Part shown: one piece after another, positions 7,801-26,724 of the stretch
Position numbering within the stretch: the stretch's first letter is position 1
Layout of the letters: each line of letters begins with the position of its first letter
Origin: Bacillota bacterium
GTDB lineage: Bacteria > Bacillota > Limnochordia > Limnochordales > ZCTH02-B6
NCBI GenBank assembly: GCA_003387805.1
Contig: QGSR01000003.1
Coordinates: 1-27,573 of the forward strand
Reading direction: 5' to 3'
DNA: 27,573 bases
Program-made: the position numbers and the translations under genes
The notes under the pieces: model-generated
What the model was told of the DNA's origin: nothing
The model's input: only the letters and a program-made list of their open reading frames with translations
Databases searched by the model: none

Positions 7801-10317
7801 CTACGCCTCGCCGTCCGGCTCGTTGACCGTCTCGTCGCCGAAAATGCTGGGCTGCTGCAGCCCGCGGCCGTCGTCGCCGTCGTCCTCTTCCTCTCGCTGC
7901 TTGACGTGGGCGATGGCCACCACTTTGTCGTTCTCGTCCAGCCGCATGAGCCGCACGCCCTGGGTGGCCCGGCCCTGCCGGGAGATGTCGTCGACTTTCA
8001 TGCGGATCATGATGCCCTCGGCGCTGATGAGCATCACTTCTTCCCCGTCCCGCACGACGCTGGCCGCCACGATGGGACCGTTCTTCTCCACCACCTGCAG
8101 CGTGCGCACGCCTTTGCCGCCGCGGTTGGTGACGCGGTATTCGTTCAGGTCGGTGCGCTTGCCGTAGCCCAGCTCGCTGACGACCAGCAGATCCGCGCCG
8201 GGCCGCACCACGTCCATGGCCACCACGTGGTCGCCGTCATCCAGGCGCACGCCGATGACGCCCCGGGTGGCCCGGCCCATGGGCCGCACCGTGTCCTCGG
8301 GGAAGCGCACGGCCTGGCCCTGGGCGGTGACCAGCAGGATGTGCTCGGAGCCGTCGGTCAGGCGCACGTCCACCAGCTCGTCGTCCTCGTCCAGGTTGAT
8401 GCCGATGAGGCCGTGCCGGGGGCTGTCGTACTCGGACAGCGGCGTCTTCTTGATGACGCCCTTCTTGGTGGCCATGACCAGGAAGTGATCCTCGTCGTAC
8501 TCCTTGACCGGGATGGCCGTTTGGATCCGCTCATCCCGCGGCAAGTCGATGAGGTTTACGATGGCCGAGCCCCGGGCGGTGCGCCCCGCTTCGGGAATGT
8601 CGTAGCCTTTCACCCGGTACACTTTGCCCTTGTTGCTGAAGAACAGGACGTAGCTGTGGGTGCTGGTGACAAACAGGTGCTCGATGAAATCGTCGTCTTT
8701 GGTGCCGGCCGCCGTAATGCCCCGGCCGCCCCGCCGCTGCGGCCGGTAGGCCGTGGTGGGCAGCCGCTTGATGTAGCCGAAGTGGGTCATGGTAATGACC
8801 ACGTCTTCGTCGGCGATGAGGTCCTCTTCCTCGATCTCGTCGGCCGCGGCCACGATCTCGGTTCGCCGCTCGTCGCCGTACTTCTCCTTGATTTCCTCCA
8901 GCTCCGTGCGGATGACCTCGTAGACCAAGTTGATGTCGCCGAGAATTTCCCGCAGCCGGGCGATGGTCTTCAGCAGCTGCTGGTATTCTTCTTCAATCTT
9001 CTCGCGCTCCAGCCCCGTCAGGCGGCGCAGCTGCATGTCCAAGATGGCGACGGCCTGCTTCTCCGTCAGGCCGAAGCGCTCCATCAAGCCTTGCTTCGCC
9101 TCGGCGTCGGTCTTGGACGCGCGGATGAGCGCGATGATCTCGTCGATGTGGTCCAGGGCAATGCGGAGCCCTTCCAAAATGTGGGCCCGCTCCTCGGCTT
9201 TGCGCAGCTCGTAGCGGGTGCGCCGAATGACCACTTCTTCCTGATGCTTCAGGTAGTGGCCCAGCATCTCTTTCAGGCTCAGCACCCGCGGCTCGCCGTC
9301 CACCAACGCCAGCATGATGACGCCGAAGGTGGTCTCCAGCTGGCTGTGGCGGTAGAGGCGGTTCAGGACCACCCGGGCGTTGGCGTCCCGCCGCAGCTCG
9401 ATGACGATGCGCATGCCGCTGCGGTCCGATTCGTCCCGCAAATCGCTGATGCCCTCAATGGTCTTGTCCCGGTGCAGCTCGGCGATCTTCTGGATCAGGT
9501 TGGCCTTGTTGACCTGATACGGCAGCTCGGTGATGATGATGCGCTGCCGCCCGTTGGCCATCTGCTCGATGCGGGCCTTGCCCCGCACTTTGATGCGGCC
9601 GCGGCCGGTGGCGTACGCCTCTTTGATGCCGTCGCGCCCCAGAATCTGCGCGCCCGTGGGAAAGTCGGGCCCGCGCACGATGCGCATCAGCTCTTCCGTG
9701 GTCACGTCGGGATTTTCGATAAGCTTGATGAGCCCGTCGACCACTTCCGTCAGGTTGTGGGGCGGGATGTTGGTGGCCATGCCCACCGCGATGCCCGCGG
9801 CGCCGTTGACCAAAAGATTCGGGATCCGCGAAGGCAAAACCGACGGCTGCTGCAGCGACTCGTCGAAGTTGGGGACGAAATCGACGGTTTCTTTGTCGAT
9901 GTCCCGCAGCATCTCCAGCGCGATTTTCGACAGCCGCGCCTCGGTGTAGCGCATGGCCGCGGGCGGGTCGCCGTCCACGCTGCCGAAGTTGCCGTGCCCG
10001 TCCACCAGCGGGTAGCGGAAGTTGAAATCCTGCGCCATGCGCACCATGGCGTCGTAGATGGCCGCGTCGCCGTGAGGGTGGTATTTGCCCATGACGTCGC
10101 CGACGATACGGGCCGACTTGCGGTGGGGCCGGTCCGGGCGCAGGCCCAGCTCGTACATGCCGTACAAAATGCGCCGCTGCACGGGCTTGAGCCCGTCGCG
10201 CACGTCGGGAAGCGCCCGGTCGACGATGACGCTCATCGCGTAGTCGATGTACGACCGCTTCATCTCGTCGGAAACCCGGACGGGCACGATGCGGCCTTCA
10301 GTAAATTCCAATGCCAT
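7801..10317 (-). CDS. gyrA: DNA gyrase subunit A
   Basis: 838 residues, a normal length. With GyrB it makes a heterotetramer that introduces negative supercoils. The catalytic tyrosine that forms the covalent DNA link is Tyr124 in [11 protein letters not shown]; the quinolone-pocket region [13 protein letters not shown] is at 78-90. The C-terminal beta-pinwheel begins near 510 and carries the GyrA-box QRRGGRG at 527-533, which marks a true gyrase rather than ParC. The tail is acidic, ending near NEPDGEA. ATG 10317 is preceded by GAGGGGAC; gyrB ends 11 bases upstream, so the two are co-transcribed. There is no intein in GyrA. Confidence 0.97.
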
Positions 10318-10328
10318 AGCGGGTCCCC

Positions 10329-13283
<2,955 letters not shown>

Positions 13284-20835: not shown

Positions 20836-20914
20836 CGTGCCGTCAAGGCAGGAGCCTTTGGCGCGGCCCTCGAAGAGAAAGAACACTTGCCCACAAGGAA
20901 GCGGGGAAGGTTCA

Positions 20915-21823
20915 TTGCGTTTAGGCGGATTGCTCAGGCGCCGGGCCGCGGGCCTGGAAGGCGAGCCGAAGGACGAGAAGCCCGCGCCGCCCGAGGCGGC
21001 TGCGGCGGCGGCCGGCGGCGAAGATCAAATCCGGCGCATCGCCATCGACGCCATCGCGCCGTCGCCCTATCAGCCCCGGATGCGGGTGGACGAAGGGGCG
21101 CTGCAGGAGCTGGCGGCTTCCATTAAGGAGAGCGGCCTGCTGCAGCCCATCGTCGTGCGGCCGCGGGGCGAAGGATTTGAGCTGGTCACCGGCGAGCGGC
21201 GCTGGCGGGCCGGCCGTCTTTTGGGATGGACCGACATTCCGGCCATCGTGCGGGAGCTGACCGACGAGGAAGCCGCCGCGCTGGCTATGATCGAGAACCT
21301 GCAGCGCGAAGACTTGAGCGCGGTGGAAGAAGCCGAAGGCTACCGCAAGCTGCTGGAGCGGTTCAACTGGACCCAGGGCGAGCTGGCCCGGCGGGTGGGC
21401 AAGAGCCAAAGCACCATCGCCAACAAGCTACGCCTGCTGCGCCTGCCCGAGCCGGTGCAGGAGCGGGTGGTGCGGCAGGCCCTGACGGAGCGTCACGCGC
21501 GGGCCCTGCTGCGCCTGGAGGACCCAGAGCTGCAGGTGAAACTGGCCGAGGAGGCCGAGGCGCGGGGCTGGACGGTGCAGGAGCTGGAGCGGCGGGTGGA
21601 GCGGCACTTGCCCGGCAGCGGCGACGAAGAGCGGCCGGCCCGGCCGAGCCGCCGCGTCGTGCGGGTGTTCAAGGACATGCGCCTTTTTCGCAACAGCATC
21701 CTGTCGGTCGTCAAGGACATGGAGCGGACGGGCCTTAAAGTCGAGGTGGAAGAGGCGGTGGATTCGGATGCCTCCGCCGACAGCTGGGAGATTCGGCTGA
21801 CCGTGCGCCGTGTGAAGGAGTAG
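20915..21823 (+). CDS. noc: Nucleoid occlusion protein Noc (ParB-like)
   Basis: 302 residues from the TTG start. Noc binds Noc-boxes, spreads along DNA using CTP, attaches to the membrane and blocks division over the nucleoid. The ParB/Srx fold has GERRWRA (CTP site) at 93-99 and [17 protein letters not shown]; the helix-turn-helix is near [19 protein letters not shown]. Two arguments favour Noc over a second ParB: the position between rsmG and parA, and the first residues [13 protein letters not shown], which could act as the membrane-targeting amphipathic helix of Noc. TTG 20915 has GGGGAAGG with a short spacing of four; GTG 20837 would add 26 residues and bury that helix. Confidence 0.88.
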
Positions 21824-21834
21824 GAGTGGGTTCC

Positions 21835-22626
21835 ATGGCACGGGTCATCGCGATCGTGAATCAAAAGGGCGGCGTGGGGAAGAGCACCACCGCGGTGAAC
21901 TTGGCCGCGTATTTGGCCGTCGACGGCGCGCGGGTTCTCCTGATTGACCTCGATCCCCAGGGCAACGCGACCAGCGGCGTGGGCGTGGACAAGGCGGCGC
22001 TGGACCAGTGCATGTACGACGTGCTGGTGCACGAGGTGCCGCTGGCCGAAGTGTGCCAGGGGACGGAGATCAAGACGCTCTCCGTCGCGCCGGCCACCAT
22101 CGAGCTGGCCGGGGCCGAGATCGAGCTGGTGACGGCCATGTCCCGGGAGTTCCGCCTGCGCCGCATGCTGGAGCCCGCGCGGGACGCGTACGATTACGTC
22201 ATTATCGATTCGCCGCCGTCCTTGGGCCTTTTGACGCTCAACAGCCTGACGGCCGCGGATTCGGCGCTGGTGCCCATCCAGTGCGAGTATTACGCGCTGG
22301 AGGGGCTGAGCCAGCTGGTGCGCACGCTGAAGCTGGTGCGCGACCACCTGAATCCGGACCTGCGGGTCGAAGGGGTCCTCATGACCATGTACGACGCCCG
22401 CACCAATCTGGGGCAGCAAGTCATCGAAGACGTGCGGGCCTTTTTCTCTTCGGCCGAAGCGCGGCGCTACATTCCGGAGGAGGTGCGGGTGTTTTCCGCG
22501 ATCATTCCGAGGAACGTGCGCCTGAGCGAGGCGCCCAGTTTCGGCCAGCCCATCGTCTTGTACGACCCGCGCTCGCGGGGGGCGCAGGCCTATGAGGAGC
22601 TGGCCCGGGAGGTGAAGGCGGGATGA
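21835..22626 (+). CDS. parA: Chromosome-partitioning ATPase ParA (Soj)
   Basis: 263 residues. It is a deviant Walker ATPase that binds DNA non-specifically as an ATP dimer and, with ParB-parS, moves origins and regulates DnaA. P-loop KGGVGKST at 11-18 includes the signature lysine; [16 protein letters not shown] is the A' motif, and [13 protein letters not shown] the Walker B. ATG 21835 has AGGAG at spacing eight; GTG 21826 in frame is too close to that site. It sits 11 bases after noc, and its stop overlaps the parB start (ATGA). Confidence 0.97.
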
Positions 22627-23492
22627 GCCGTCGCAGGCGGGGGCTGGGCCGCGGCCTGGGCTCGCTGCTGCCGGTGGACGCGGAAGCGACGCTGGACGCC
22701 CGGCTGGTGCCCGTCGATCAAATCGACCCCAACCCGTACCAGCCCCGCCGGGAGATGGATCCCAAGGCCCTGGCGGAGCTGGCCGAGTCCATCCGCACCC
22801 ACGGGGTGCTGGAGCCCATCATCGTGCGGCCCGTGGACAGCCGTTACGAGCTGGTGGTGGGCGAGCGCCGCTGGCGGGCCGCGCAGCAGGCGGGCCTGAC
22901 GGAAATTCCGTCGGTGGTGCGCACCATGACGGACCAGGAGGCGGCCGTCGTCGCGCTGGTGGAGAACTTGCAGCGCGAAGACCTGAACCCCATCGAAGAG
23001 GCCAAAGCCTTCAAACGACTGCTGGAACTGAACATGACCCAGGAGGAAGTGGCCGCGCAAGTGGGGCGCAGCCGATCGGCGGTGGCCAACAGCCTGCGGC
23101 TGCTGACACTGCCGGAAAGCGTGCAGGCGCTGATCAGCAGCGGCGAGCTCAGTGTGGGCCATGCCAAGGTACTCTTGGGCGTCACCAACCCGGTGCAGCG
23201 GCAGGCGGTGCTGCAGCGGGTGCTGTCGGAACAGCTGACGGTGCGGCAAACCGAAGAGCTGGTACGCGGCCTGGCGGCGGGCCCCGACAAGCCGCCCCGG
23301 CGGCGGGTGGCCGCGTCGGGCCGGGCGCCGCGGGATCCCGTCTGGCTGGATTTTGAGGAGCGGCTGTCCGAGGCGCTGGGGACGAAAGTGAAGGTACAGC
23401 CGCAGGGCAAGGGCGGGCGCATCGTCATTGAGTTTTACGACCAAGAGGATATCGGGCGCTTGTTGGAGTTGATTGTTCCACGTGGAACATAA
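22623..23492 (+). CDS. parB: Chromosome-partitioning protein ParB (Spo0J)
   Basis: 289 residues. ParB is a CTP-dependent clamp that loads at parS and spreads. The N-terminus [17 protein letters not shown] is the ParA-stimulating tail; GERRWRA (CTP binding) is at 80-86; [17 protein letters not shown] follows; the helix-turn-helix is around [19 protein letters not shown], and the dimerisation domain is at the C-terminus. The last codons, for IVPRGT, include the parS site itself. It overlaps parA by four bases. A YcgR/FlhG fusion gene starts 14 bases after its stop. Confidence 0.97.
23474..23489. promoter_or_regulatory. parS: parS centromere site
   Basis: TGTTCCACGTGGAACA is a perfect 16-base palindrome and a close match to the bacterial parS consensus TGTTTCACGTGAAACA. 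It lies in the last codons of parB, ahead of the stop. In B. subtilis a parS is likewise inside spo0J. Confidence 0.95.
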
Positions 23493-23506
23493 CGGGAGGG
23501 GACGCC

Positions 23507-24682
23507 GTGTCCACCGAACCGAAAGACCAAGCAACCCTCCTGACCGACTGGACCGCCCTGGAGCCCGGCCGGTCGGTGACTCTGCGAGCCCATTCGTCGC
23601 TTCATAAAGGCGACTACGAGTGTGCGGTGCTGGATCGCACCGCCGACCGCCTGCGTGTGTCCATGCCCATGGAAAACGGCAAGCTGGTGCTGGTGCCCGT
23701 GGGCACCATCGTGTCGGTGGAAGGGCGCACGCCGGCGGGCATCGTTTCCGTGCGGGCGCAGGTGGTGGACCGCCGCAGCGGCCGGGAGCGGAGCCTGCTG
23801 CTGGGGCCTGAGCCCAAGCCCCCCGAATACTTGCAGGCCCGCAGCGGTCCGGCCCTGTGCCGCACCATCGCGGTGACCAGCGGCAAAGGGGGCGTGGGCA
23901 AGACGGCCTTGGCCGTCAACCTGGGCGTGGCGCTGGCGGCCCTGGGGCGGCGGGTGTGCGTCGTCGACGCGGACCTGGGTACGGCCAACGTGGACGTGCT
24001 GCTGAACATGACGCCGCGCTGGAACTTGTCCCACGTCATCAGCGGGGAGAAGAACATTTTCGACGTGCTGGTCCAAGGCCCCCGCGGCTTGGTGGTGCTG
24101 CCGGGCGGCTCGGGCCTGCAGGAGCTGACGGCGCTGGACGATCGCCGCTTCGGCAAGCTTCTGGCCCAGTTTCACCAGCTGGAGCGGTTCGTGGACGTCA
24201 TGCTGCTGGACACCGGCAGCGGTCTGGCCAAGTCGGTGACCAACTTCGTCCACGCGGCCGATGAAACGATTTTGGTGACGACGCCCGAGCCCCACGCGAT
24301 TACCGACGCGTACGCCCTGATCAAGGTCGCGTCGCAGCGGCCCGGGCCGCTGCGGCTGCGTCTGGTGGTCAACCGAGCGCAGGATGAAGGAGAAGCCCGG
24401 GACATCGCGAGGAAAATGTCCTTCGCGAGCCGGAAGTTTCTCGACACGGAGCTGGATTATCTGGGCTGGGTGGTGGAGGACGCGGCCGTGGGCCGCGCCA
24501 TCCGGCGCCAGCAAGATTTGCTGACGGCCGCCCCGAGAAGTCGCGCCGCGGGGTGCGTCCAAGCCATCGCGGCTGCGCTGCACCGGGAGCTGTCCGGGGA
24601 GGACGGCGCCGCCTTTGCCGACGCGGAGGCGGAAGTCCGGCCGTCTTTTCTGCACAGGATTCGGCGGCTGTTCGCCCGCTGA
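23507..24682 (+). CDS. YcgR N-domain fused to FlhG/MinD-type ATPase
   Basis: 391 residues. Residues 7-12, DQATLL, resemble the DQAxxLR motif by which FlhG activates FlhF. Residues 18-108 fit the YcgR-N (PilZN, flagellar brake) domain: LEPGRSVTL, KGDYECAVLDR, LRVSMPMENGKLV and PVGTIVSVEG. The PilZ domain that normally follows is missing. Instead, from about 118 there is an FlhG/MinD ATPase with P-loop SGKGGVGKT at 125-133, DADLGTANVDVLLN at 154-167, VLPGGSGLQEL, LLDTGSGL, and TTPEPHAITDAYALIKV. The tail RPSFLHRIRRLFAR could be an amphipathic membrane anchor. The likely start is GTG 23507 with GGGAGGGG upstream. No flagellar gene is nearby; neighbours are parB and an M23 peptidase. Confidence 0.85.
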   Translation: MSTEPKDQATLLTDWTALEPGRSVTLRAHSSLHKGDYECAVLDRTADRLRVSMPMENGKLVLVPVGTIVSVEGRTPAGIVSVRAQVVDRRSGRERSLLLGPEPKPPEYLQARSGPALCRTIAVTSGKGGVGKTALAVNLGVALAALGRRVCVVDADLGTANVDVLLNMTPRWNLSHVISGEKNIFDVLVQGPRGLVVLPGGSGLQELTALDDRRFGKLLAQFHQLERFVDVMLLDTGSGLAKSVTNFVHAADETILVTTPEPHAITDAYALIKVASQRPGPLRLRLVVNRAQDEGEARDIARKMSFASRKFLDTELDYLGWVVEDAAVGRAIRRQQDLLTAAPRSRAAGCVQAIAAALHRELSGEDGAAFADAEAEVRPSFLHRIRRLFAR

Positions 24683-24702: not shown

Positions 24703-25659
24703 GTGCCGCTCCCAAAACGCCGTACTCGTCGTCCCCGCCGCCAAGGCTATGACGTGCTCGTTGCGGCCCGGGGCGGCGGACCCGTGCAGCGCTGGGCCGT
24801 GCCGCAGTGGCTGCTGACGGCCGCGGCGGCGCTGCTGGCCGCCAACGTGTTTTTCATTGTGGGCCTTTTGTCCCTCAGCGGGGCGCGGGGAATGGAGCTG
24901 GCCTTGCACAAAGCCCAGCTGCAGTCCCTGGCCCAGCGGCACCAGGCCTTGCTGGAGGCCGCCGCGGAGCAAGAGGCGCAGCTGGTCGCACTGGCGCTGG
25001 AGGCGGAGCGCCTGGCCCAGCGGGTGCAGGAGCTGGAAAGCCTGGGCGAGGAGATTTGGCGGCTGCTGGGATACGAAGGCCCGCCCGGCGGCGTCTCCAC
25101 GACGGATTTGGGCCGGGGCGGTCCCGACGACGCCTTTGACGGCGACGTGGTCAGCGCGGCGCTGGCCACGGTCCACACTTTGGCCCGGGAGTTGCCGGCG
25201 CGGTTCCAGGAACTGGAAACACTGCGGGAGACCGTGCTGGCCTACAACCACCGCATGGCCCACACCCCCTCCATCTGGCCGGCGTCGGGGCGGGTGTCGT
25301 CGGAATACGGCATGCGGCGCCACCCGATTTCCGGACAGGTGCAGCTGCACCAAGGCATCGACATCGCCGCGCCCACGGGGACGCCCGTGCACGCCACCGC
25401 GGCGGGCCGGGTGGTCTTCGCGGGCAGCCGCGGCGGCTACGGACTCACGGTCGTCATCGACCACGGCTACGGGCTGCAGACGCTGTACGCCCACAATTCC
25501 CGCTTGTACGTGGCCGAAGGCGACGTGGTGGAACGGGGCGACGTCATCGCGGCGGTGGGCAGCACCGGCCTCAGCACGGGCCCGCACGTGCACTACGAAG
25601 TGCACCGGAACGGTGAAGCCGTCAACCCGCGGGCGTACCTGCCGACGCGCAATCCTTGA
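24703..25659 (+). CDS. Membrane-anchored M23 (LytM) peptidase
   Basis: 318 residues. A basic cytoplasmic start (PLPKRRTRRPRRQ) is followed by one membrane helix (about 31-58), a coiled coil (64-122), and a C-terminal LytM domain (about 190-315). The zinc site has His216 and Asp220 in HQGIDIA and His297 in HVHYEV, with catalytic histidines at 264 (YAHNS) and 295. All are present, so it is likely an active cell-wall endopeptidase outside the membrane. GTG 24703 has GGAGGAGG close upstream; TTG 24685 is an alternative. It is followed by a bactofilin, a pairing known from cell-shape loci in other phyla. Confidence 0.9.
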   Translation: MPLPKRRTRRPRRQGYDVLVAARGGGPVQRWAVPQWLLTAAAALLAANVFFIVGLLSLSGARGMELALHKAQLQSLAQRHQALLEAAAEQEAQLVALALEAERLAQRVQELESLGEEIWRLLGYEGPPGGVSTTDLGRGGPDDAFDGDVVSAALATVHTLARELPARFQELETLRETVLAYNHRMAHTPSIWPASGRVSSEYGMRRHPISGQVQLHQGIDIAAPTGTPVHATAAGRVVFAGSRGGYGLTVVIDHGYGLQTLYAHNSRLYVAEGDVVERGDVIAAVGSTGLSTGPHVHYEVHRNGEAVNPRAYLPTRNP

Positions 25660-25709
25660 CGGCAGACATTACGCCGAGTTCATCGGCGCTAGCAGCACTG
25701 GAGGTACTC

Positions 25710-26114
25710 ATGCTCGGTCGCAGGCAGCAAAGCAACGGCTCGGGGGGCCGGACGATGGAGACGTACATCGGACCGGATACGAAGCTGGAAGGGACGGTGG
25801 CCGCCGCGGGCTCGCTGCGCATCGACGGCCACGTGGACGGGGAAATTCAGGCCGAGGGCGACGTCGTGGTGGGCGAGTCGGGCCGGGTGCGGGCCGGCAT
25901 CACCGCGGCCAACGTCATCATCGCCGGCGAAGTGACCGGCCGGGTCCAGGCGTCGGGCCGCCTGGAGCTCATGGCCACGGGAAGACTGTACGGCGACGCG
26001 GTCATGCAGACGCTCATCGTCGAGCAGGGAGGCGTGCTGGAAGGCACGTGCCGGATGGACCGGGAGGAGCAGCCGCGGCCCGCGGAAGTGCTCAACGGGG
26101 CTCAGGGCGGCTGA
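25710..26114 (+). CDS. Bactofilin
   Basis: 134 residues. The central part (about 18-115) is a repeated beta-helix: YIGPDTKLEGTV, GSLRIDGHVDGEI, GDVVVGESGRVRAGI, ANVIIAGEVTGRV and GRLELMATGRLYGDV-like units, as in bactofilins, which polymerise without nucleotide and often recruit peptidoglycan enzymes. The ends are short and unstructured. ATG 25710 has GGAGGT six bases upstream; an upstream in-frame start at 25656 would overlap the peptidase stop. The last 23 bases overlap the end of the convergent yyaC gene. Confidence 0.92.
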   Translation: MLGRRQQSNGSGGRTMETYIGPDTKLEGTVAAAGSLRIDGHVDGEIQAEGDVVVGESGRVRAGITAANVIIAGEVTGRVQASGRLELMATGRLYGDAVMQTLIVEQGGVLEGTCRMDREEQPRPAEVLNGAQGG

Positions 26115-26724
26115 CCGCCGCTTCCCGGGCGGCCCGCCAGTGCGCGAAGCCCAGGGTCAGGCCGTCCGCGATGACCCGGGCCATGCGCATGACCAGGCTG
26201 AGCCGAGTGTTTTGCAGCACGAAATACTCCATGAAGCCGCCCACGTTGACGATGCCAACGACATGAAACCGGCCCACGGGCGGCAAGTGCTTGTTGACGC
26301 CGGTGCCGGGGTAGAGCGGACCCGGCTTGACGGAGATGCAGCCGACGCTTTCGCTCTTGCCCAGGCACGCGTCTACGGCGATGACGGTGCCCGGCGGAGC
26401 CGACGGGTTGTCGTACAGCTCCCGCAGCACTTCGTGCAAGTTGGCGGCATGGACGGGTTCATCCAGCGTTCCCAGCACCCGTACGTCTTTGCCGGCTCGC
26501 TTGGCCAGCCGGGCGCCCACCAGCGGGCCCAGCGCGTCGCCGGTGGAACGATCGGTGCCGATGCAGACCACGGTGATCCGGGCGTCGCCGCCGGCCGAGG
26601 CCAAATGCTCGGCCACGGCCCAGGACAACGACCGGGCGGCCCAGCGGTCGTCCACGTGCACGCGGTGCAGGGACGGCGCGGGGCGGCGCGTTTTCTCCAG
26701 CGCTTGCGACAGCCGCTGCCACAC
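26092..26724 (-). CDS. yyaC: Spore protease YyaC (DUF1256)
   Basis: 210 residues. It belongs to the YyaC family, related in fold to hydrogenase-maturation and GPR proteases. Family signatures are CIGTDRSTGDALGPLVG (about 55-71), VLGTLDEPVHAANL, VIAVDACLGK, SVGCISVKPGPLYPGTGVNK and a GIVNVGGFMEYFVLQNTR block. In Bacillus the gene lies next to soj-spo0J and is expressed in sporulation, so its place here is conserved and supports a spore-forming host. GTG 26724 has GGAG eight bases upstream. It converges on the bactofilin and overlaps it by 23 bases. Confidence 0.92.
   Translation of the reverse strand: MWQRLSQALEKTRRPAPSLHRVHVDDRWAARSLSWAVAEHLASAGGDARITVVCIGTDRSTGDALGPLVGARLAKRAGKDVRVLGTLDEPVHAANLHEVLRELYDNPSAPPGTVIAVDACLGKSESVGCISVKPGPLYPGTGVNKHLPPVGRFHVVGIVNVGGFMEYFVLQNTRLSLVMRMARVIADGLTLGFAHWRAAREAAVSRPEPR

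Follow-up and report, generated by a model that had tools for sequence, protein, structure and literature searches.

A gene directly downstream of parB in the window (the whole stretch of 27,573 nucleotides of DNA that was analysed) encodes a protein which, judged by its sequence, belongs to the FlhG clade of ATPases and in which a YcgR-N domain lacking the c-di-GMP switch replaces the helix that activates FlhF. We put at about one half the probability that this protein is a second FlhG that is probably FlhF-independent and c-di-GMP-blind, is made together with ParAB and places or counts flagella in concert with chromosome segregation. Its flagellar link is supported, with two genomes (G001 and G095) against it, and we infer the coupling to segregation from the gene order. 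A more specific version, namely an FlhF-independent, par-borne FlhG that is tied to ParB-parS, has displaced the canonical FlhG (and in places FlhF) in several lineages and is ATP-locked in one family, is tentative and rather unlikely to hold in full. No description of a PilZNR-FlhG fusion or of an FlhG in a par operon was found in the titles and abstract starts of the open-licence literature, among the matches listed, and the main text of a review of FlhF and FlhG (PMC12826062) does not mention PilZ, a fusion or c-di-GMP.

The initial annotation had described the gene as a YcgR-N domain joined to an FlhG-type ATPase with the PilZ domain absent, and the domain search agreed with it. PF12945 matched residues 19-99 at 42.4 bits against a cut-off of 23, and the ATPase families AAA_31, NUBPL-type ParA and CbiA, all above cut-off, jointly covered residues 119 to 355. 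No PilZ domain was matched by Pfam in the 391-residue protein. The PilZNR (YcgR-N) domain was also recovered in a DNA-level search. The nearest solved structures by sequence were FleN (5j1j, E 9e-58, residues 119-356) and then FlhG (4rz2, E 7e-40), and Foldseek, run with an AlphaFold2 model of the protein (mean pLDDT 85), ranked FleN/FlhG at the top. In the model, strands at residues 23-101 make up a beta domain, which is followed by the ATPase and by a short helix at the C-terminus (381-390). This helix, amphipathic in the model, is probably a membrane-targeting sequence, and tails resembling it were visible by eye in the alignment of many relatives. The ATPase domain carries KGGVGK, D156 and D235, together with a docking triad at K273, K303 and F311. 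Its score with minD_bact was 104.6 bits, below the cut-off of 212.9, and the match to PF09140 (MipZ) was weak and partial (26.5 bits, cut-off 20.7). By our reading, PF12945 was precomputed on 116 of the 120 best homologues listed. The databases name the homologues FlhG, AAA family ATPase or P-loop NTPase, and several of the named ones come from Limnochordia or Limnochordales. The coordinates are given in Table 1.

Table 1. Features of the fusion gene and of the surrounding locus, in window coordinates.
Feature	Position	Strand	Basis or remark
Noc-like ParB paralogue that opens the partition block, after rsmG	20837..21823	+	ParB_N, HTH_ParB
parA (Soj type)	21826..22626	+	PF13614, E 6.6e-68
parB (Spo0J type), overlapping parA	22623..23492	+	ParB_N, HTH_ParB and ParB_C above cut-off
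parS, inside the 3' end of parB, with the fusion start codon 17 bases downstream	23474..23489	.	Perfect match to TGTTNCACGTGNAACA
Shine-Dalgarno-like GGGAGGGG of the fusion gene	23494..23501	+	Read directly
PilZNR-FlhG fusion gene	23507..24682	+	391 aa, GTG start, single unbroken ORF
PilZNR (YcgR-N) domain, residues 19-99	23561..23803	+	PF12945, 42.4 bits (cut-off 23)
FlhG/FleN-type ATPase domain, residues 119-356	23861..24574	+	Sequence, Foldseek, residue mapping
C-terminal amphipathic helix, residues 381-390	24647..24676	+	AlphaFold2 model
M23 peptidase, directly after the fusion	24703..25659	+	PF01551, E 3e-37
Bactofilin	25656..26114	+	PF04519, E 9.5e-28
YyaC-type DUF1256 gene, convergent, end of the conserved block	26092..26724	-	PF06866, E 8e-53

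Upstream of the fusion gene lie jag, rsmG, the Noc-like parB, parA and parB. The Noc-like gene (20837-21823) scored 305.4 bits with TIGR04285 (nucleoid_noc), slightly below the cut-off of 315. The gene had been reported to adjoin parS and parB, and it does: parB is directly upstream and the perfect parS at 23474-23489 is the only one in the window at two or fewer mismatches, where 0.02 are expected. The start codon of the fusion is 14 bases past the parB stop, and from this spacing the gene is presumably co-transcribed with parAB. For the M23 peptidase the longest open reading frame begins at 24553, and the start at 24703 is a guess. The peptidase and bactofilin genes (24703-26114) also follow the fusion in the relatives L126, L130, L131, L144, L145 and L232. 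As a conserved partner of the fusion the pair was rejected, being recognised in only some par loci. The YyaC-type gene was recognised in most of the par loci fetched.

A survey for the same fusion elsewhere found it in 28 of the 72 genomes of the class, each time after parB. These carriers are 27 genomes plus one with a diverged copy (G019); two of the 27 are partial at contig ends, the fusion of G004 being split by a contig break and that of G058 cut by a contig end. Only some of the fusionless genomes of the class were searched below E 1e-60, where the G019 copy surfaced, and more diverged copies are possible. In all 28 carriers, which belong to many families, the first gene recognised behind parB is the fusion (20 loci and the window in one survey, seven loci in a second), and the genes downstream vary. 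With the joined gene at the same place in 28 genomes of the class the fusion is genuine, and a sequencing artefact, a frameshift or a mis-assembly is ruled out. In 26 of the 28 loci a parS-like site with two or fewer mismatches falls in the interval from about -310 to +1250 bases relative to the PilZNR start, these limits having been set after the positions were seen; the exceptions are G001, where the nearest site is about 3 kb off, and the contig-cut G004. When one mismatch at most was allowed, all 20 par-fusion loci had a parS, as against none of 40 flagellar-operon loci and none of 20 loci with other fusions. Since parS is expected near parAB in any case, these counts are weak extra evidence.

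In a sample of the phylum the full-length fusion was found in at least 29 of 299 genomes. Twenty fusions were fetched from outside the class, two of them inside flagellar operons. Neither par nor flagellar genes were recognised near the fusion in 18 of the 20 loci (fetched as 13-19.5 kb), and a general link between fusion and par genes was accordingly rejected outside the class. The neighbours of these orphan fusions are varied genes (20 proteins, from 12 of the 18 loci). A first scan of genome contigs with the single protein as query gave no match, and in a second, judged by a home-made profile, PilZNR and ATPase were found in one frame in none of 80 loci, the best 80 of 465 relatives. In G281, outside the class, an HD_5-domain gene (L192:7905-9038, + strand) ends 33 bases before the fusion gene. 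HD_5 domains are often c-di-GMP phosphodiesterases, so that the neighbour is a possible tie to c-di-GMP; it speaks against complete independence of that messenger.

The varied places of this protein family outside the class are what would be expected if the protein were simply a flagellar FlhG paralogue at the motor, its place behind parB an accident of lineage and the par promoter a source of steady expression. All of the flagellar evidence described below fits such an account equally. The link to parB, however, has been kept in 28 of 28 carriers across many families although the genes downstream have changed, and we consider an accident of lineage possible but doubtful.

The careful tree of the ATPase domain comprised 90 of 98 rows, leaving out the fusions of G019, G271, G318, G071, G028 and G025, Helicobacter, and the FlhG of G337; the truncated FlhG half of the source genome was left out of the ATPase trees. 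The 39 main-clade fusions form a single clade (99/98) on the FlhG side, apart from MinD (100/100), and the 22 par-locus fusions form one clade (99/97) inside it. A tree of the N-domain (88 columns, leaving out G019, G271 and G318) was poorly resolved; its row labelled YcgR (G058) is the contig-cut fusion. The operon fusions of G113 and G336 fall outside the main fusion clade, and the AU test does not reject a single origin, with p 0.387 for all fusions and 0.452 with G113.

A flagellar operon of G113 has the order flhA-flhF-flhG-[PilZNR-FlhG]-ycgR (flhF to ycgR at L203, about 8303-12195, - strand). We infer that a tandem duplication of flhG-ycgR, with fusion of the first ycgR to the second flhG, would give just this order, and the row of genes is a possible snapshot of the origin of the fusion. 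The flagellar-operon FlhG of G336 (L204:9210-10433) has PilZNR between an intact DQANSLR helix and the ATPase, so PilZNR can sit in a flagellar FlhG.

Three residues of Geobacillus thermodenitrificans FlhG, K177, R207 and F215, are needed for FliY and affect GpsB binding (PMC12327844, in part). That paper gives Arginine 277 in its text and R207E for the mutant, and R207 was used here. The triad was mapped through an alignment with 4rz2, in which, by our reading of the chain numbering, subtracting 8 brings all three residues into agreement. The pattern K-[KR]-F is present in 25 of 26 par fusions, 24 of 29 flagellar FlhG, 11 of 16 other named FlhG and 15 of 21 other fusions, and in none of 6 MinD and the single ParA. 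The 26 par fusions scored for motifs leave out G004 and G058, which are cut by contig ends, and the only one of them without the triad is the diverged G019 copy.

The N-terminal DQAxxLR enhancer helix of FlhG activates FlhF (PMC12826062, in part). It was found in 0 of 26 par fusions and 1 of 21 other fusions, and in 26 of 29 flagellar FlhG, which a relaxed motif raises to 28, and 11 of 16 named FlhG; its absence from 5 of those 16 rows means that it is not universal in FlhG. The DQATLL at residues 7-12 of the window protein was rejected as a conserved DQAxxLR, since relatives in the alignment do not share it. Within a stretch of 42 residues spanning the end of YcgR-N, RxxxR, the c-di-GMP motif, was present in 21 of 21 distinct YcgR-like frames as against 2 of 47 fusions, and random windows of the same YcgR proteins contain it by chance in 0.35. 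Both exceptional fusions come from sister genomes. The stricter [QL].R...R was found in 24 of 24 YcgR-like frames, counting repeats (21 distinct), and in 0 of 47 fusions. A c-di-GMP receptor of the YcgR kind was rejected on the lack of a PilZ match and on the occurrence of RxxxR in 2 of 47 fusions. With DQAxxLR and RxxxR gone, both known regulatory inputs, FlhF activation and c-di-GMP, appear to have been stripped, and the ATPase, the tail and the C-ring surface remain.

The second Asp of the DxD motif (D156 in the window protein) is replaced by Ala or Ser in 6 of the 26 par fusions. These are L236-L239, L142 and L143, from genomes of the same class (G025-G030), all six of which keep an ordinary flhG. 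Loss of this residue is the experimental ATP-lock of FlhG or MinD (PMC3228812, in part; 4rz3 chain), and to judge from the substitution the six proteins look naturally ATP-locked.

The position of the gene also suits a MipZ-like ATPase, which would be bound to ParB at the origin, form a gradient and position the divisome or the origin, with FlhG as its ancestry only. Such a protein would be expected after parB, where the gene lies in 28 of 28 carriers, and a parS-like site is near it in 26 of 28 loci. FlhG itself affects division in Campylobacter jejuni, where its deletion leads to minicells (PMC3228812, in part), and in Halothiobacillus anucleate cells arise when FlhG is lost (PMC10241942, in part); G001 and G095 have the fusion without detected FlhA. 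A MipZ-like role is nevertheless unlikely in view of the docking triad in 25 of 26 par fusions, missing only from the diverged G019 copy, the place of the protein on the FlhG side of the tree, the co-occurrence of the fusion with flagella, and MinC in all 21 fusion genomes tested. The same MinC result led us to reject the fusion as a substitute for MinCD. Overall, MinC was found in 29 of 30 genomes tested, the sole miss being the fusionless G045.

As had been anticipated, flhG and ycgR are separate neighbours in the flagellar operon, and separate flhF, flhG and flagellar genes are present in the genome that carries the window. FlhF is encoded on contig C79 (225 bits, cut-off 174), with FliP, FlhB and FlhA upstream of it. 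A separate FlhG with a DQAQSLR helix starts after flhF and is cut by the contig end; contig C403 starts with the end of an FlhG, followed by YcgR (PilZNR + PilZ), a sigma factor and, farther on, rpsB. The operon order is thus flhA-flhF-flhG-ycgR-sigma, away from the window, and a MinC-MinD pair lies on contig C399. Since the genome has its own ordinary flhF, flhG and ycgR, the window gene is an extra paralogue and not a displaced flagellar gene. Elsewhere in the class, all 20 of the second-copy loci that were fetched encode an FlhG consisting of the ATPase only, downstream of flhA and flhF in the flagellar operon (in one of them fliP and flhB are hidden by a contig end, in another the sigma gene).

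FlhA was found in 246 of the 299 genomes of the phylum, compared with 29 of 29 listed with the full-length fusion (of at least 29 carriers). Ignoring relatedness, the Fisher value for this co-occurrence is 0.004 without G095 and 0.024 with it. Two genomes depart from the rule. G001 (91% complete) has an intact par-locus fusion, and FlhA was not detected in it; G095 (99% complete) has a diverged PilZNR-ATPase (L231:1524-2618, - strand), whose PilZNR scored 24.0 bits against a cut-off of 23, and no FlhA.

Among decidable genomes of the class, 7 of 26 fusion carriers have no separate flhG, compared with 0 of 40 fusionless genomes (Fisher 0.0008, relatedness ignored). When the undecided flagellated genomes (G006, G031 and G051) are counted as losses, the numbers become 8 of 27 and 2 of 42 (Fisher 0.011, relatedness again ignored). 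The losses fall in about four families, and their real weight is therefore below the Fisher values. Outside the count are the carriers G001 (no FlhA) and G006 (contig ends after flhA) and the fusionless G031 and G051 (contig breaks at the flhG place, no FlhG elsewhere) and G052 and G053 (no FlhA). FlhG and FlhA are on the same contig in 36 of the 40 fusionless genomes; flhG is cut at a contig end beside flhF in 2 and lies on another contig in 2.

Six of the genomes without flhG (G002, G003, G004, G059, G060 and G061) have an operon that contains flhA, an FlhF-like gene and the sigma gene but lacks flhG; the gene before sigma is a PilZ gene in G060 and G061 and a 149-aa open reading frame in G059. 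Other FlhG-like matches in the six were 2e-44 or weaker, and the best remaining one adjoins minC and is thus minD. FlhF scored 202, 205 and 167 bits in G002, G003 and G004, respectively, and 45 to 72 bits in G059-G061, against a cut-off of 174. The loci of G061, G059 and G060 (L211-L213), which have no separate flhG, keep the start of FlhF with a degenerate GTPase part, and in this family (f2) flhG may have been lost as the placement switch decayed as a whole. In G019 both flhF and flhG are missing from the operon, and its fusion is diverged and has lost the triad. The fusion appears to have taken over from ordinary FlhG in several lineages. It is not simply a replacement, since 19 of the 26 decidable carriers keep an ordinary flhG.

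The suggestion in the initial annotation of a job other than flagellar number control is not supported. It is favoured by G001 and G095, which carry the fusion without detected FlhA. Against it are the retained docking triad, the absence of flhG only where the fusion is present (among decidable genomes), FlhA in 29 of 29 listed carriers and the two fusions inside flagellar operons. A polar or chemotaxis-array positioning ATPase, similar to ParC and with YcgR-N reading the state of the motor, would also account for the co-occurrence with flagella, and ATPases of the MinD/ParA kind do position chemotaxis clusters (PMC10241942, in part). None of the 20 neighbour proteins from 12 of the 18 orphan loci matches a chemotaxis family, however, and the pattern of flhG loss points to the job of FlhG, which makes a role at the arrays very improbable.

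Compared to FlhG/FleN/YlxH, the fusion has the same ATPase clade, deviant Walker A (KGGVGKT), C-terminal amphipathic tail and C-ring docking triad; it differs in lacking the DQAxxLR helix, in its extra YcgR-N, in following parB and not flhF, and in the presence of an ordinary flhG in the same genome. With YcgR/MotI, the c-di-GMP flagellar brake or clutch, it shares the N-terminal PilZNR, but PilZ and RxxxR are missing and the ATPase takes the place of the PilZ half. MipZ, the ParB-binding inhibitor of FtsZ, is alike in being a MinD-superfamily ATPase with a genetic tie to ParB, as well as in the weak PF09140 match, whereas the fusion is on the FlhG side of the tree, has the docking triad and coexists with a Min system in its genome. 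MinD is alike in fold, Walker A and amphipathic tail and unlike in that minD_bact is below cut-off, MinC is on another contig (C399) and the triad occurs in 0 of 6 MinD.

We therefore return to a second FlhG made with ParAB as the preferred reading. FlhG alternates between a monomer in the cytosol and an ATP dimer bound to the membrane, and it binds proteins of the C-ring (PMC12826062 and PMC12327844, both in part), and YcgR binds stator and rotor, its N-domain being proposed to contact FliG (PMC12713396, in part). By analogy, the fusion would cycle as an ATP-dependent, membrane-bound dimer and use its conserved FliY/GpsB-type surface to dock on the flagellar C-ring. YcgR-N would then serve as an additional rotor or stator docking module and not as a c-di-GMP sensor, so that the FlhG surface and YcgR-N would give the protein two points of attachment to basal bodies, whether nascent or finished. 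It would limit or place basal bodies without switching FlhF, and expression with ParAB would let its level and timing follow origin segregation. The minicells of Campylobacter jejuni and the anucleate cells of Halothiobacillus lend support to an interplay of FlhG with the chromosome or division cycle.

The loss of both the FlhF helix and the c-di-GMP switch marks a distinct FlhG subtype, and the missing separate flhG in several fusion-bearing lineages amounts to a natural complementation that can be tested. For the peritrichous system of Bacillus subtilis, a recent review describes the spatial cues as unclear (PMC12826062, in part). A conserved FlhG encoded with parAB offers a direct genetic handle on the timing of flagellar number and placement relative to the cell cycle. 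If the preferred reading is true, a par-borne FlhG would make the number or position of basal bodies follow chromosome segregation.
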